Program-made: the position numbers and the translations under genes | The notes under the pieces: model-generated | What the model saw: the letters and a program-made list of their open reading frames with translations, nothing else | Told to the model about the DNA's origin: nothing | The model's database searches: none | From: SAR86 cluster bacterium | Lineage (GTDB): Bacteria; Pseudomonadota; Gammaproteobacteria; Magnimaribacterales; Magnimaribacteraceae | NCBI GenBank assembly: GCA_023703575.1 | Contig: CP097969.1 | Location: 1,025,517 to 1,089,516 of the forward strand | Direction of reading: 5' to 3' | DNA: 64,000 nt | Shown: positions 4,355 to 10,148 of the stretch, in pieces | Layout of the letters: every line of letters starts with the position of its first letter | Numbering within the stretch: the first letter of the stretch is position 1

Positions 4355-5281
4355 TTAGGCACTCACTGCTTTCATTAAAACACTTCTGTAAGAATTTGCG
4401 ATACACATTCTATCTTCATATCCATTTTCAATCATCATGGAATGTGCCTTCGGTAAGTTATACCAAGGACACATCATGAATAAGTGATGTTCAAGATGAT
4501 AATTCACCCTATGCGGAGCCATTAAAAACCTCACCAAAGGGTTTGTTAATGTTGTTCTTGTATTATCAAAGTTATTATTACCAGGCGTTACGGAGTGTTC
4601 CGCGATATTTCTAATCCTGATTATTAAACTATAGTATGTAAATGCTGGAAGCCACCATAGTAAAAAAAATAAAGACCAGTGAAAGAAGATAGAAATCATG
4701 AAAAATATGATCGTGTTTGTAATCAAAAAACCATGTATTTTATGCCATACTCTATTTAGTTTTTCCTTAGAATTTTTAGCTTCAGTGTTCAAGATTGAAT
4801 TCAGAGCTTGAGAGTATCTTTTGTATCCTGTTATTCCTGTTAAATCTCTAAAAATTTTTCTGTAGAAACTGTCTTTTTTTATCGGAAAAGGTGCGCTCAA
4901 TGATAAATCTGGGTCATCTTTTGTTTCCGTAAACCTATGGTGCTTCAAATGATATGGCCTATAAACTCTATTATCTTGGAAAATGGGGTATGCACAAAAC
5001 CATTGAGAAATGAAATCATTTACTTTTGGATCTGAGAATAAAAGATTATGTGCTCCATCATGGACAAGTACTGCTAAAGCAAACTGTCTCGAACCAATTA
5101 TGATCAGGCTCACGATAAAAGTGATAAAGCCGGGGTATAAGTAAAAGAAAGCAAGAGAAGATACAATTAATCCCCAATCAAAAATTAGGGCGAAAACATT
5201 CTTCAGATCACTTTTTGATCTAATGATGGCTAACTGTTGTTCGTTAAGAAGATCAGAAGGCTTAATTCTGGAACTATCCAT
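4355..5281 (-). CDS. Membrane fatty acid desaturase family protein
   Basis: Probable di-iron, oxygen-dependent acyl desaturase or hydroxylase of the inner membrane. The three histidine clusters of the family are visible in order: HDGAH (about 74-78), HLKHHRFT followed by DDPD (about 111-122), and YHLEHHLF near the C-terminus, with an extra NIAEHS. Hydrophobic segments at about 30-65 and 185-225 would form paired membrane hairpins. At 308 residues it is normal length. The substrate cannot be read from sequence: phospholipid acyl chains are most likely, but carotenoid hydroxylation or alkane hydroxylation use similar scaffolds. Upstream is a 142 bp gap containing the terminator of the neighbouring operon. 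Confidence 0.86.
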   Translation of the reverse strand: MDSSRIKPSDLLNEQQLAIIRSKSDLKNVFALIFDWGLIVSSLAFFYLYPGFITFIVSLIIIGSRQFALAVLVHDGAHNLLFSDPKVNDFISQWFCAYPIFQDNRVYRPYHLKHHRFTETKDDPDLSLSAPFPIKKDSFYRKIFRDLTGITGYKRYSQALNSILNTEAKNSKEKLNRVWHKIHGFLITNTIIFFMISIFFHWSLFFLLWWLPAFTYYSLIIRIRNIAEHSVTPGNNNFDNTRTTLTNPLVRFLMAPHRVNYHLEHHLFMMCPWYNLPKAHSMMIENGYEDRMCIANSYRSVLMKAVSA

Positions 5282-5379
5282 CTTCTAATTATAACTAAGG
5301 CTAGCGAGTCTTAGAAATATTTATACAAAGATAAATATCTGATAATTATGAATTTTCTAAATAATAGATTAAATTTAAT

Positions 5380-5410
5380 AAAAAAACGGCCACCAAAGTG
5401 ACCGTTTTAT
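5380..5410 (-). terminator. Rho-independent terminator of the five-paralog unit
   Basis: Read on the minus strand, 15 bp after the stop of the last paralog, the sequence forms AAAACGG-T-CAC / GTG-G-CCGTTTT around a short TTTG-type loop (one T/G wobble at the mismatch position) and continues into a run of seven Ts. The stem plus T-run on this strand only makes it a good intrinsic terminator for the paralog array. The rest of the 5282-5423 gap is AT-rich and should hold the desaturase promoter (a TATAAT lies about 10 bp before its ATG). Confidence 0.8.
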
Positions 5411-5423
5411 TCAATAAAAAGTA

Positions 5424-6164
5424 TTAGTTCATTACTTTTATATTATTTGCTGCATAAACCCTAGGAGCATCACAATCAGCAATCTGTTCTGGTAAAGAAC
5501 CATCAGACATAGCTTGTTTTCGAGCATCTCTGTATTTTCCATACTCATTCATGCTGCTAAAAGAGATATTGATATAGAAGTCGTTAGTAGCTGAAGTGTC
5601 TGATCCACCTGCAGCCCACCATCTCCAAGCTCCTCCTGAATGCCCAATACTATCAAAAAATGCATTCCATTCTTTATCATTATCTCTGAAGTCAGAAACA
5701 CCTTTTCTTTTCTTGAAATTACAGCTATGAAAAGCCCAAATGTTTGTGTCCCCTTCTTCAAAAGTTGATGAAGGTTCTCTTGCTTCCCAGATGTCCCAAT
5801 GACTCCAAGAGGCACATTCAACTAAATTCTCCCATTTACTGAAAACTTCTGTTCCATTTTCAAAAAACCAATCAAGAGAGGTGCCCATATCGGCATTATC
5901 TGCCGTAAATCCAACCCAAAATAAGTCATATCCACCGTCATTATCAGCAAATAATGTCGGAGTAGTAACCCAGCCATCGTATGGAATAGGATAATCTAAC
6001 TCATACCAGTCTGTCCTGACCATATTCATTACATCCTCAACACTCTTTCCGTCCTTCAGATTACACTGTAGAACTTCTCCTGTATAAGTTGTCCATTCAT
6101 GATCATCAGCAAAACTCATAAGGCTAAAAGAACTTAAGACAAAAATTTGTAGAATTTTTTTCAT
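5424..6164 (-). CDS. Exported four-cysteine two-domain protein, paralog 1 (function unknown)
   Basis: I do not recognise a named family. The 246-residue protein starts with a clear signal peptide (about 1-19, cleavage before DDH). Domain A runs from C34 to C117 (LKDGKSVEDV, DGWVTTP, YDLFWVGF, MGTSLDWFF). Domain B runs from C148 to C231 (WNAFFD, GGAWRWW, DFYINISFSS, MNEYGKYRDA), followed by a DAPRVYAANN tail. The paired cysteines could form one disulfide per domain in the periplasm. It is the last gene of the array and is followed by the terminator. Its second domain has KKRKG where the others have the acidic EGK block, so it is a slightly diverged copy. Confidence 0.82.
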   Translation of the reverse strand: MKKILQIFVLSSFSLMSFADDHEWTTYTGEVLQCNLKDGKSVEDVMNMVRTDWYELDYPIPYDGWVTTPTLFADNDGGYDLFWVGFTADNADMGTSLDWFFENGTEVFSKWENLVECASWSHWDIWEAREPSSTFEEGDTNIWAFHSCNFKKRKGVSDFRDNDKEWNAFFDSIGHSGGAWRWWAAGGSDTSATNDFYINISFSSMNEYGKYRDARKQAMSDGSLPEQIADCDAPRVYAANNIKVMN

Positions 6165-6180
6165 AATTTATCCTTTTAAT

Positions 6181-6933
6181 TTATTCAACTAATCTTAGTC
6201 TTACATTAGTTGACTCATAAAGCCTCGGTGTATTGCAGTTATGCACTTCCTCTGGTCTCGTATTATTCATCATAGCTACCAGCCTGTTGTCTCTTGAAGC
6301 TCCATATTGCTCAATACTCGAAAAACTTACAGCAACTAAATAATCATAATCTGTCTCTGTTGGAGATCCAGTTTCGGGCCACCATCTCCAATAACCACCT
6401 TCAAATCCTGAGTCATCTAAATATTTATTCCAAACCTTATCATTAGATTCTAAGTCATCAACTGACTTGCCTTCTTTGAAAGAGCAAGATTGAATCATAG
6501 TATAACCAGTCGCACCTTCAACCCATTCGTTTTTGGGAGTTCTTCCTTCTACATTAAGATTAAGTGACATTCCAGAACAGTTAGTTACCCTTTCCCATTT
6601 TTCAGCAATCTTTTGGCCACCAGCCCTGAATTCATCTTCAGCTTTGCCAACACTAGCAAGAGTCTCAGCAAATCCTAGAAAAACAAAATCTAGATCAAAA
6701 TCTGTATTTGACATGTATACCGGAGTCATAACCCAAGCACTAAAGGGTTCTGTAAAGTATTCATCACCATATTCATTCCATTCATCAAGCACTTTCATGA
6801 CATCATCCATATCTTTACCATCTGTAAATTGACACTGTAATGCTGCCATACCACCTATCTCAACATGATCATCTGCATTAGCAAAGTTCAAAAAAGATAA
6901 GCATATTGATATTAAAATAATTTTAATTTTCAT
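6181..6933 (-). CDS. Exported four-cysteine two-domain protein, paralog 2 (function unknown)
   Basis: Same family as its neighbours, 250 residues. The start at 6933 is chosen over in-frame starts at 6945 and 6975 because GAGG lies 7 bases upstream of it and the longer versions run into the next gene. A signal peptide (MKIKII..., cleavage before DDH) precedes domain A (DGKDMDDVMK, DEWNEYGDE, AWVMTP, LDFVFLGF, SVGKAEDEF) and domain B (KEGKSVDDLE, VWNKYLDDSG, GGYWRWWPE, DYDYLVAVSFSS, QYGASRDNR), ending in NTPRLYES. The four domain cysteines are conserved; one further cysteine lies in the signal peptide. The role is unknown; export to the periplasm is inferred from the signal. Confidence 0.84.
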   Translation of the reverse strand: MKIKIILISICLSFLNFANADDHVEIGGMAALQCQFTDGKDMDDVMKVLDEWNEYGDEYFTEPFSAWVMTPVYMSNTDFDLDFVFLGFAETLASVGKAEDEFRAGGQKIAEKWERVTNCSGMSLNLNVEGRTPKNEWVEGATGYTMIQSCSFKEGKSVDDLESNDKVWNKYLDDSGFEGGYWRWWPETGSPTETDYDYLVAVSFSSIEQYGASRDNRLVAMMNNTRPEEVHNCNTPRLYESTNVRLRLVE

Positions 6934-6949
6934 TTTTTTCCTCATTGGT

Positions 6950-7702
6950 TTAGTTAAAAGGTCTGTTTCTAGCATTCATTGCAGTATAAACTCGTGGTGT
7001 GTCGCAACTTAAAATGCTTTCTGGTTGAGATGCACTATTCCAAAATCTGTCATCTAATGATTCTCCGTACTCTTCCCATGTGTTGTAAGTAACATTTAGT
7101 AAGAAATCTATGTCCAAAGAATTGGAAGTTCCTGGACCCGGCCACCAGCGCCATACGCCTCCGGTGAATCCTCTCTTATCATTGTAATCATTCCAAGCTT
7201 CATCACTTGCTTTTAAATCTTCTACTGATTTACCTTCAATGAAAGAGCAACTTCTGATTTCCCAAAAAGTGGTTCCCCCTTCTTCAAAGGGGATTGTTGG
7301 AGCTCTAGCTTCAACAGCCATATAATATCCTTGAGAACCACAGTCAGAAATTGAATCCCATTTTGCAAATGTGCTAGCCGCTTCATCTGAGAACCATGAA
7401 TCTTGAACAATGCCCATATCTTTATGAGAATTAGTGAAGCCAACCCATCCAAAATCAAAGTTAGATTCATTAGCAGATCTCAGAAATGGTGTTAATACAA
7501 ATCCGCTGTAAGCAGCTTTCCAGCTCTTATCAGCATAGGGATTCAAATCTTCAGAAATGAAATCAATCACATCATCCATGTTCATGTCTTCTTCAAAATT
7601 ACATTGGTAACCTTCCATTCCATAACTCACCGGCATGTGGTCATCGGCCAGAAGATTATTCAATCCAAAAAATATCAGCGATATTAGTAAATACTTATTC
7701 AT
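6950..7702 (-). CDS. Exported four-cysteine two-domain protein, paralog 3 (function unknown)
   Basis: 250 residues from the ATG at 7702; a TTG at 7720 would only add six charged residues before the signal peptide. The signal (MNKYLLISLIFFGLNNLLA) ends before DDH. Domain A has MNMDDVIDF, GFVLTP, NFDFGWVGFTNS and MGIVQDSWF. Domain B has IEGKSVEDLK, WNDYNDKRGF, GGVWRWWPGPG, DIDFLLNV and EYGESLDDR, ending in CDTPRVYTAMNAR. All four cysteines are kept. This copy is the closest to the array consensus. The gene lies 16 bp upstream of paralog 2 and 21 bp downstream of paralog 4. Confidence 0.84.
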   Translation of the reverse strand: MNKYLLISLIFFGLNNLLADDHMPVSYGMEGYQCNFEEDMNMDDVIDFISEDLNPYADKSWKAAYSGFVLTPFLRSANESNFDFGWVGFTNSHKDMGIVQDSWFSDEAASTFAKWDSISDCGSQGYYMAVEARAPTIPFEEGGTTFWEIRSCSFIEGKSVEDLKASDEAWNDYNDKRGFTGGVWRWWPGPGTSNSLDIDFLLNVTYNTWEEYGESLDDRFWNSASQPESILSCDTPRVYTAMNARNRPFN

Positions 7703-7723
7703 ATTTCTTCTCGTTCTCAAAAA

Positions 7724-8485
7724 TTAGTTACTTGGAGATCTAACATTATTGATCTGATAGAGTCTTGGTGAATCACATGAGAGCATTTCGCCATATATCT
7801 CTAATTGCGCTAGCAAGCCTCCTTCATTGATGATTGATCCCATTCCATCACCCCATTCATTCATTGAAGAGGCAGTAAATACATTTTTAAAATCATAATC
7901 GGCCTCAATTGAATCACCAACAGCCGGATACCATCTAAATATGCTTCCTTTCCCCTCATTTGAATCAAGATAGGCATTCCATTTAGCATCAGCCATAGCA
8001 AGATCAACCGGAGTAATTCCTTCAGATACCGAGCAATTACTTACCATCATTACACCTTCTGAATCTTGATCAGGAATTGATTGTCTTATTACTTGAGCAG
8101 CAAATATTGTTTGCGTATTGCAAGTTCTAATTTTGTCAAACTTTGCACCCAGAGCAGCAGCTTCTTCAAACCAGATATCATAAATTTTTCCAAAGCTCGA
8201 CCAGGAGTTTGATCCACCTAGCCATCCAAAATCAAAAGAATTATCACTTGCTGATCTGTAGTGAGGTGTAACAACCCAACCTGCGTAAGGATATTCACTG
8301 TGTTCATTCAGGAAGTCGTTCCATTCATCAATATGCCTCATGAAATCTTCCATGTCATTGTTGCCATTGAAATTACATTGCTGAATTTCAATGGGGAAAA
8401 AATTAGGCATTTCAGGAGTATGATCATCAGAATATAGCCAGAAAGATGCCGAAAGTGCAAAAAGTAAAGTTAAAGTTTTATTCAT
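7724..8485 (-). CDS. Exported four-cysteine two-domain protein, paralog 4 (function unknown)
   Basis: 253 residues. The start ATG at 8485 has AGGA eight bases upstream. The signal peptide ends before DDH (SDDHTPE). Domain A contains NNDMEDFMR, DEWNDF, AGWVVTP, SFDFGWLGGSNS and FGKIYDIWF; domain B contains SEGITPVDL, KWNAYLDS, FRWYPAVG, DYDFKNVF and NEWGDGMGS, then a longer insertion (about 10 residues) before CDSPRLYQINNVR. The RWW of other copies is RWY here. Four cysteines are kept. Together with paralog 5 it forms the more diverged, longer-tailed pair of the array. Confidence 0.83.
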   Translation of the reverse strand: MNKTLTLLFALSASFWLYSDDHTPEMPNFFPIEIQQCNFNGNNDMEDFMRHIDEWNDFLNEHSEYPYAGWVVTPHYRSASDNSFDFGWLGGSNSWSSFGKIYDIWFEEAAALGAKFDKIRTCNTQTIFAAQVIRQSIPDQDSEGVMMVSNCSVSEGITPVDLAMADAKWNAYLDSNEGKGSIFRWYPAVGDSIEADYDFKNVFTASSMNEWGDGMGSIINEGGLLAQLEIYGEMLSCDSPRLYQINNVRSPSN

Positions 8486-8493
8486 AATATTTC

Positions 8494-9255
8494 CTAATTA
8501 TTTGACCTGACCTGAAGAACGTCATAAACAGCTCTGTTATCACAAGTCATAAGATCTCCGTAAATTGATTGCATGGCTTGATTGCCACCACCGTTGACAG
8601 CCATGTCAACTGCTTTACCCCACTCTACGAGGTTATCTGCAGTTTGACTCCACAAGAAATCAGCCGTGAAACGAGAAGGCAAACCAGATCCAGGCCACCA
8701 GCGTCCAGCTCCTCCTGTCATGCCCTGAGAATCTGAATAATCATTGTATTTTTTGTCAGCAGCTAAGACCTGATCATAAGTTGTCCCTTCTGTAAGAGTA
8801 CACCAAACAATAGTTGATACTCCTGTATCATCACCATCACTTGATTCAGATTGTCTAACACTTTCGTAACCCCAATTTACATGATCAAAGCAAGGCGTTA
8901 CTCTATCAAACTTAGAGTTTATTTTTACTCCTTCAGGTTCTCTCATTAATTGTTGTGCCTTTCCGAGCTCCTCCCAAGTTGGTGAAGCTCCTACCCAGAA
9001 AAAATCAGCTTCTTCTTCGTCGCTGTAAAAATTTACTGAAAAAATCCAAGCACTGTATTGGAAATCAGTCTCATCGGCATATTCATTCCACTCTTCAGTA
9101 ACCTTTAATAAGTCTTCCATATCTTTGCCATCTGCGTAATTACAAGCAAAACTCTCAACTGGAATAAAAGTAGGCTGGATATGATCATCTGAAAGAATAT
9201 TAAAAGAAAATAATATTGATACAGCAGATATAGCTGCGCTTAATTTGAGTTGCAT
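8494..9255 (-). CDS. Exported four-cysteine two-domain protein, paralog 5, first gene of the array (function unknown)
   Basis: 253 residues from the ATG at 9255, chosen because GGAG lies six bases before it; an ATG at 9267 would place four more residues ahead of the signal peptide. The signal ends before DDH. Domain A has DGKDMEDLL, EEWNEYADE, SAWIFSV, DFFWVGA and ELGKAQ; domain B has TEGTTYDQV, YNDYSDSQGM, GGAGRWWPGSG, ADFLWSQ and EWGKAVDM, then a 10-residue insertion shared with paralog 4 and CDNRAVYDV. WN has become YN in domain B. It is promoter-proximal and preceded by a ~78 nt leader. Confidence 0.83.
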   Translation of the reverse strand: MQLKLSAAISAVSILFSFNILSDDHIQPTFIPVESFACNYADGKDMEDLLKVTEEWNEYADETDFQYSAWIFSVNFYSDEEEADFFWVGASPTWEELGKAQQLMREPEGVKINSKFDRVTPCFDHVNWGYESVRQSESSDGDDTGVSTIVWCTLTEGTTYDQVLAADKKYNDYSDSQGMTGGAGRWWPGSGLPSRFTADFLWSQTADNLVEWGKAVDMAVNGGGNQAMQSIYGDLMTCDNRAVYDVLQVRSNN

Positions 9256-9339
9256 TAACCTCTCCATTTAACACAAGGTTTATTCCTTGAGTTCTTAGCC
9301 ATGTGAGAATGCTCCCCAACTATCTCCGACCGGACAAAT

Positions 9340-9368
9340 ACAGTATTTGGTTTTTGAGTTCTCGTCAA
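9340..9368 (-). promoter_or_regulatory. Sigma70-type promoter of the paralog array
   Basis: On the minus strand TTGACG (9363-9368) is separated by exactly 17 bp from TACTGT (9340-9345), about 85 bp before the first paralog start. The -35 matches consensus at five of six positions; the -10 keeps the three most conserved bases. The implied leader of ~78 nt contains a small hairpin (CAAGG/CCTTG, 9274-9289) shortly before the ribosome binding site. Motif-based call only. Confidence 0.55.
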
Positions 9369-9377
9369 TATGTTTAT

Positions 9378-10148
9378 TTAATGTTTCCTGCCTCTCCAAA
9401 ATTTACTCTTTAGAAAATTTAAAAGCGTATTATTTTTTAATGTATAGATATCTATTTGGTCATAAAGATCTCTTAATCCCTCTGGATCTTCAAAAAGTTT
9501 GATCCGTGTAACTCCATCAATAGTTGGATCAAGTTCTTTAATGATATTTGCAGGGTTTCCTCCAACTATTACATTATCTGGAACATCCTTTACAACAACA
9601 GCTCCTGCAGCAACTATGCTATTTTTTCCTATAGTCACCCCCTTTCCTATCATGGCCCTATCTCCAATCCATACATTATCTTCTAGAGTTACAGGAGATG
9701 ATTTACCGACAGGTGTTGCTCGATCGTATATGCCGTGCCAATCTGCATCTGAGATATAAGCACTATTAGCAAACATACAGCCATCCCCTATTGTTATCTT
9801 TGATGCTGAAGCAATCCTAACCCCTGGAGTTAATAAGCAATATTTCCCTATAGATATTTCTCCTTCATGATCTTCCAAGCTCCATGTGGTTAGGTGAATA
9901 TAGTTATCAGGAGAAGCTACCATAGTAGGATAATCATCAATTGATATATTGCTTCCATATACATCAAAATATCGAGCTCCCATAATATTGTGACCCTTTC
10001 CGAAATACTCAAATTGGGGAGCTAAATAGTTATCTACATAAAAATTATTGTATTTAGCAAATAGCTTTTTTAGCCAATATGGTCTGTGATCTTTTCTGAT
10101 GTCTTGCCTCTTGCGTACATGATAAGATAGGCACCTTCTATGGAACAA
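9378..10148 (-). CDS. Hexapeptide-repeat acyltransferase (maltose/colanic-acid O-acetyltransferase type)
   Basis: Probable acetyl-CoA-dependent O-acetyltransferase acting on a sugar or surface glycan. The C-terminal half is a left-handed beta-helix with isoleucine/valine hexapeptide turns ([42 protein letters not shown]) and the GNPA ending typical of the LacA/WbbJ group; a conserved DADWHG carries the probable catalytic histidine. The start is doubtful: no ATG exists before residue ~56, so the call uses a TTG at 10148 that overlaps the divergent MATE gene by 9 bp, and has no good ribosome binding site. A more internal non-ATG start is possible. The acceptor is unknown. Confidence 0.8.

Follow-up and report, generated by a model that had tools for sequence, protein, structure and literature searches.

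Several enzyme families are built on a double ferredoxin-like alpha/beta barrel, and the ligands or substrates bound inside such barrels are commonly small hydrophobic or aromatic compounds. Sulfur oxygenase reductase (SOR) is a cytoplasmic iron enzyme whose iron site consists of two histidines and one glutamate, and chlorite dismutase, HemQ (coproheme decarboxylase) and DyP, which have two ferredoxin-like repeats per chain, bind haem through histidine. In a stretch of 64,000 nucleotides (the window; positions 1,025,517-1,089,516 of a single-contig 1.59-Mb SAR86 genome) we studied an array of five genes whose exported products very probably have the same architecture. The fold is common to SOR and the array protein over nearly the whole length of the latter (Z 13.5-15.1), and it is shared with chlorite dismutase, HemQ and DyP at Z about 10, but the array family has no conserved histidine pair to match the SOR iron site, no conserved histidine for haem and no Pfam match. 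Among 97 two-domain members the best histidine column reached 48% (at the signal-peptide junction) and the next 39%. Since no histidine is conserved, haem or SOR-type iron is unlikely. The family is unnamed in the libraries searched; the fold itself is already known.

The gene array and its duplicated domain

The array consists of five closely spaced open reading frames (ORFs) on the minus strand (9255-5424), which code for proteins of 246-254 amino acids (aa) and are followed by a terminator-like structure. Positions are window coordinates, and those of the ORFs include the stop codon:

8494-9255, minus strand: array gene 5, first in the operon, 253 aa
7724-8485, minus strand: array gene 4, 253 aa
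6950-7702, minus strand: array gene 3, 250 aa
6181-6945, minus strand: array gene 2, the protein modelled, 254 aa (250 aa if the ATG at 6933 is used)
5424-6164, minus strand: array gene 1, last in the operon, exported two-domain protein, 246 aa
5383-5408, minus strand: intrinsic terminator-like stem of 11 pairs with a T-run (terminator scan)

Counted from gene 1, the intergenic gaps are 16, 4, 21 and 8 bases. The five proteins could be aligned over their full length, with 27-36% identity to gene 1, and genes 1, 2, 4 and 5 matched gene 3 with E-values between 2e-52 and 4e-28. Invariant in all five are the D-D-H following the signal sequence (signal peptides were assigned by eye) and four cysteines (34, 117, 148 and 231 in gene 1 numbering). 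The ratio of nonsynonymous to synonymous substitution rates, determined against near orthologues for genes 1, 2, 3 and 5, was 0.035-0.070; therefore these four of the five proteins are constrained by purifying selection. The terminator scan, which covered positions 5000-9700, found five such sites compared with 2.2 in shuffled sequences, two weaker ones being located within gene 3.

The original prediction, made from the letters of the window, had described five adjacent exported paralogs with four invariant cysteines, one promoter and one terminator, and this description was confirmed by the ORFs, by the full-length alignment, by the terminator-like stem at 5408-5383 and by a promoter recognized in comparison with relatives (see below). 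Its length range of 246-253 residues was close to the actual one, missing only gene 2, and the CDTPRxY-like ending that it had ascribed to all five occurs as C-x-x-P-R-x-Y in four of them, gene 5 ending in CDNRAVY.

Comparison of the N and C halves of the array proteins revealed an internal repeat (hhalign 98.7%, E 4e-16). Because the halves align with each other, each array protein is a fused tandem duplication of one domain of about 105 residues. Single-domain homologs were also found: the homolog collection contained 61 two-domain and 6 shorter proteins (five complete single-domain ones of 127-129 aa and a 97-aa piece of a gene truncated at the end of a contig), and an alignment built from the six shorter ones matched the N half with 99.9% and the C half with 97.6% in hhalign. 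The four cysteines are distributed two per domain, at equivalent positions in both halves. All four were present in 90 of the 97 two-domain members, six lacked both N-domain cysteines and one was cut by a contig end; no member had lost a single cysteine (one column of slack was allowed). The six without the N-domain pair keep the C-domain pair and are related to each other, which means few evolutionary events. Loss in pairs fits one disulfide per domain.

An AlphaFold2 model of the gene 2 protein, computed from 48 rows (window and related loci), had a predicted local distance difference test score (pLDDT) of 90.6 and a predicted template modelling score (pTM) of 0.82. Its topology is E-H-E-E-H-(H)-E twice, i.e. 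two beta-alpha-beta-beta-alpha-beta units in one chain, and with high confidence the model assigns the array protein to the dimeric alpha/beta-barrel fold as a fused, pseudo-dimeric member. In each modelled unit the cysteines are close to the places where strand 1 ends and strand 4 starts. These strands are adjacent in a ferredoxin-like unit, so the predicted placement is what a cross-strand disulfide requires. The top match in the Protein Data Bank (PDB) was 2PGC, an uncharacterised crystal structure of a marine metagenome protein (JCVI_PEP_1096685590403), with a Foldseek E of 2e-7, TM scores of 0.58/0.68, Z 16.0 and a root-mean-square deviation of 3.0 A over 199 aligned residues. It has the same double ferredoxin-like barrel as the array protein but only about 10% identity to it, and its crystal chains comprise 203-206 residues. 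In sequence search the array profile (A5) did not match 2PGC, and a profile of a companion family (A7) matched it weakly (E 0.41).

That the expanded family has no family name, as originally predicted, was borne out by the searches. NCBIfam, searched with the five array proteins up to E 10, gave no match to a family of this fold and nothing above chance. Pfam, searched with 48 members up to E 1, gave ten weak families only, among which chlorite dismutase/HemQ/DyP and ABM/anthrone-oxidase-like families were absent; the sole listed Pfam family of this fold, the AsnC ligand-binding domain, was hit by one of the 48 members at E 0.22, which is chance level. Pfam likewise yielded nothing above chance for four additional members and for a small number of other exported proteins from SAR86. 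No relative was found by sequence search of solved structures with the array profile, the single-domain profile and five other queries; a designed repeat protein (E 0.00036) was set aside as the sum of six 22-residue matches, none of which counts alone. A single scan of viral contigs found no relative, and the literature searched, mostly titles and the beginnings of abstracts, contained no description of the family or of its leader.

Distribution and evolution of the array

With the gene 3 protein as query, matches were obtained in 22 of 35 genomes of the family and in 13 of 18 other genomes of the genus. A 35-row profile matched 187 of 203 genomes of the order, representing all 22 genera. In a sample of the class 5 of 369 genomes matched, four of them from the same order and one (G368) from another gammaproteobacterial family (f164), in which 67 of 101 genomes matched. 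In a sample of the phylum two of 398 matched, namely the genome studied here and one with a single-domain protein (E 4e-7). The array family is kept across relatives. Among 15 named loci, all in SAR86 cluster or Gammaproteobacteria records, the closest had a gene 3 copy with 91% identity.

In the genome studied here the array profile recognized, besides the five array genes, one member at 908 kb and a second, lipoprotein-like member at 183 kb, and the single-domain profile recognized one more at 672 kb. Two glnK-amtB-like pairs, identified by eye, flank the lipoprotein-like member (L080:4446-5258), and a connection with ammonium uptake was therefore considered; the idea was dropped because lipoprotein-like members from four further genomes of the order are surrounded by different genes. 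At about 785 kb there is a tandem pair of exported-looking proteins of 242 and 244 aa (L156:770-1498 and L156:1501-2235). The second of them matches the profile of the companion family c12 (E 4e-23, see below), the first is double ferredoxin-like by eye, and a relative of the first (E 4e-16) is at 671 kb, beside the single-domain array homolog.

Other surroundings of diverged members were also recorded. Small hydrophobic proteins of about 134-161 aa adjoin such members in L079 (4307-5050 with 5209-5628), L039, L040 and L116; the one tested, in L079, had no Pfam match. In three loci of other SAR86 families (L115, L118 and L120) members have small exported-looking neighbours, unrelated in sequence, which by eye resemble alpha/beta barrels of one or two units, a hint that this fold has expanded more widely in the exported proteome. 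In L121 (235-5466) a tandem repeated block with two similar 362-aa ORFs, each preceded by a similar short gene, is upstream of a member.

The array is located between desaturase-like and acyltransferase-like genes. Of 22 loci examined, 10 had both flanks, and in these ten the number of family genes varied from one to five, with only one in L047 and L059. The conserved flanks comprise desaturase-like, MsrB-like, MurJ-like, acyltransferase-like and divergent MATE-like genes (named by eye apart from the acyltransferase, which had a Pfam check). The desaturase-like and acyltransferase-like neighbours were considered as partners of the array; they are constant while the array between them changes, and are probably not part of it.

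Both-flank arrays of relatives also contain other genes: the companion exported families c11 and c12 (5/10 each), a beta-lactamase-type serine hydrolase (5/10) and an FG-GAP repeat protein (6/10). The latter two are found at the downstream end of the array on the same strand (L050, L055, L057, L058, L061), and both are absent from the window. By profile the array family has no clear match to c11 (best 44%, E 2e-4) or c12 (31%, E 5e-4). An internal repeat was found in c12 (hhalign 87%), and a c11 model, made from 8 rows, has the same double topology as the array protein, its best match again being 2PGC (Foldseek E 1e-10, Z 17.8). On the basis of these models c11 and the array family may have kept one scaffold while their sequences changed. 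In a 60-row tree, rooted at the midpoint and with long branches flagged among the outer rows, the five window genes fell into separate starred orthologue groups, each spanning at least two genera. Judged from these sequence comparisons, the array paralogs seem to be older than the genus, and exported members are gained, lost and swapped in the array.

Promoter and leader RNA

The region upstream of the first gene was compared in 13 loci, in L047 and in G030, the last of which was found by model search. The following features were recognized in the window:

9378-10148, minus strand (array strand): acyltransferase-like gene upstream of the array, Pfam-checked
9340-9368, minus strand: promoter, TTGACG (9368-9363), 17 bases, TACTGT (9345-9340), by comparison with relatives, by eye
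9305-9326, minus strand: leader hairpin 1, GAGA-UA-GUU-GGGG-AGC-AU-UCUC with a GGGG loop, by comparison and folding
9270-9293, minus strand: leader hairpin 2, AACTCAAGG/CCTTGTGTT, one mismatch, stem kept while letters change
9259-9265, minus strand: ribosome-binding site GGAGAGG

The position and spacing of the promoter are the same in relatives (e.g. TTGACA-17-TAAATT); a consensus promoter scan of 5000-9700 listed no promoter before gene 5. As the upstream acyltransferase-like gene is on the array strand, read-through into the array is possible. In type A leaders (window, L060, L058, L055, L063) and in G030, TTGAC(A/G), 17 bases and a TA...T box are followed by GAGA-nn-GUUGGGGAGC-nn-UCUC, which precedes another hairpin and GGAGAGG. 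The core GGGGAGC(A/G)(U/C)UCU was present in all ten same-genus loci and in none of five from other genera, three of which had a looser GGGGA variant. Because the first gene falls in different groups among these genomes, the leader is a feature of the operon rather than of a single paralog.

Five leaders were used to construct a covariance model, which recovered four more, of type B, among 65 sources (E 4e-7 to 0.009; the next match was at 0.38). In the 35 genomes of the family the model found the previously unseen G030 leader (E 1e-11), whose second hairpin has different letters that still pair, and nine genomes had the leader before the array at E < 0.01. Two other places below this threshold were rejected, one within a coding region (24.8 bits) and one resting on the ribosome-binding site (21.5 bits). 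No leader regulon was found among the 74 rows obtained up to E 0.5 in the 35 genomes, with the genes around three of them viewed, namely the G030 leader and the two rejected places, in a search that missed the leader of G019 (L043) known by eye. Rfam 15 contained no match to the leader, only human-type long non-coding RNA models far below their gathering scores; the leader is a candidate new leader RNA.

In the inner seven pairs of hairpin 2, compared in six sequences, 40 of 42 pairs form, and both-sided changes occur in all seven pairs (in pairs 6 and 7 through one sequence each). When the arms were permuted, 2 of 720 arrangements, the true one included, paired equally well; the register of the arms had been chosen manually, a procedure that favours pairing, and three of the six sequences are closely related to one another. 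A conserved structure with compensatory changes, as in cis-regulatory RNAs, is located before the gene start.

Two partners are available to the UUCUC of hairpin 1, the 5' GAGA and the ribosome-binding site (the latter pairing with -3.5 kcal/mol in the window and -6.5 in L063), and the competition between them is a possible switch. There is an appreciable chance that the leader is instead a 5' stabilising structure or the DNA site of a regulator. Its motif is nearly invariant in sequence, as expected of a DNA site, the folding energy of the leader is no better than that of shuffled sequences (z -0.55), and the best fold of the 99-base leader, which has ordinary energy, pairs with the ribosome-binding site and does not contain hairpin 1, which is in the best fold of six of nine shorter leaders. 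In contrast, the isolated motif folds into hairpin 1 with -4.8 to -7.7 kcal/mol in nine of ten (the tenth, L043, reaches only -0.7), and the motif is found 3' of the -10 box at varying distances. Like these, the compensatory changes in hairpin 2 speak for RNA structure.

Function of the array proteins and comparison with known systems

The locus would be one transcription unit for five exported proteins, which with high confidence are pseudo-dimeric alpha/beta barrels. The array proteins are most likely periplasmic binders or carriers, or cofactor-free converters, of small, probably hydrophobic compounds, with one specificity per paralog. In the proposed sequence of events a sigma-70 promoter would give rise to one mRNA, and its leader (the GGGG-loop hairpin, with a 3' arm able to pair with the ribosome-binding site, then the second hairpin) would set or switch translation. 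The Sec pathway would export each protein, each ferredoxin-like half would form one disulfide in the periplasm, and the two halves would pack as a barrel holding a small, probably hydrophobic or aromatic molecule; binders or carriers would hand their compounds on. If, as seems probable, the paralogs have a common scaffold but different pockets, the array is a repertoire of specificities.

According to the part of one study consulted, SAR86 invests in beta-oxidation, and the authors of the study propose that it degrades complex lipids in the periplasm and cleaves aromatic and steroidal rings (PMC11582366). These reports (PMC11582366, seen in part), together with the usual ligands of the fold, are the reason for ranking carriers before cofactor-free enzymes; periplasmic binding or carrying is a tentative first choice. 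Several observations weigh against it or against the framework to which it belongs. The link to lipids and steroids exists at the level of the organism only. Apart from the divergent MATE-like gene, inspection of the array and its conserved flanks by eye revealed no transporter permease. A catalytic site is an equally good reading of the conserved D, R, W, N and Y residues. Within the genus the gene 3 query found nothing in 5 of 18 other genomes, assemblies that are 50-82% complete and in which the array is absent or unassembled. Finally, profile comparison revealed no internal repeat in c11 (6%), and the c11 model has middling scores (pLDDT 74.5, pTM 0.73).

These conserved, possibly catalytic residues lead to the nearest rival, that the paralogs are exported cofactor-free enzymes of oxygenase, isomerase or cyclase type (ABM-/anthrone-oxidase-like), each acting on one compound, which by analogy is possible but rather doubtful. 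The fold is common to the anthrone-oxidase-like 5F9P and PenE (Z 11.8 and 11.2 for the array protein, 15.2 and 14.4 for c11), and among the 48 rows of alignment A5 there is no variation at N169 and R131 and hardly any at R183, W184, D173, D197 and Y239. When remote members were added (97; gene 3 ORF numbering), D205 (0.93) and Y245 (0.88) held, but the best R fell to 0.79, the best N to 0.67 and W192 to 0.62, and no enzyme family of this fold was matched in Pfam or NCBIfam. It is unlikely that the proteins are subunits of one heteromeric periplasmic or surface assembly with one paralog per position. Five old paralogs have been retained in one operon, relatives add companions of like architecture, and proteins of this fold, such as chlorite dismutase and SOR, are often oligomeric; a gene number that varies from one to five in the ten both-flank arrays, with a single gene in L047 and L059, is nevertheless a poor fit to an assembly of fixed make-up. 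A role as haem or iron enzymes like chlorite dismutase/HemQ/DyP or SOR, which have the same double ferredoxin-like fold, is highly improbable given the lack of a conserved histidine in the 97 members and of any profile match. The three options of the original prediction (binding proteins, subunits or enzymes) are thereby narrowed, in that haem and iron enzymes of the fold are unlikely, and otherwise stay undecided; its interpretation is partly supported, and the internal duplication, the single-domain homologs, the known fold, three extra members, mixed arrays and the RNA leader are new.

The known fold removes part of the mystery, and the unusual, repertoire-like array and the leader add interest. 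An exported family that has no name in the libraries searched, is present in 187 of 203 genomes of the order and maintains old paralogs in a small genome is a concrete target. With a SAR86 isolate reported, in a source seen in part, to be now in culture, ligand and regulation could be tested, and the leader offers an entry point: whatever it senses hints at the compounds that the proteins handle.

Among described proteins, CT0912 of Chlorobium tepidum (3GN6) has a ferredoxin-like domain repeat with two units as in the array protein (Z 12.7), but it is only 7% identical, and its depositors describe it as an ORFan. Anthrone-oxidase-like proteins and putative monooxygenases (5F9P, PenE 9KDP, 3F44, 3MCS) consist of duplicated alpha/beta-barrel units (Z 11.2-11.8) but do not match the array family by profile; to our knowledge they are not exported and lack the cysteine pattern of the array. 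A speculative and rather improbable extension is that in SAR86 exported, disulfide-braced double alpha/beta barrels form a class of their own of periplasmic receptors or carriers for small molecules, a diversified repertoire that replaces classic solute-binding proteins, and that the main array is under the control of a new leader RNA, which would sense one of the compounds, or a protein reporting it, by freeing or masking the ribosome-binding site. Classic binding proteins often have a permease gene beside them. Tandem solute-binding proteins of ATP-binding cassette (ABC) and tripartite ATP-independent periplasmic (TRAP) systems differ from the array in having another fold, and in that no permease was seen alongside the array; like the array proteins they are exported, paralogous and possibly devoted to one ligand each.

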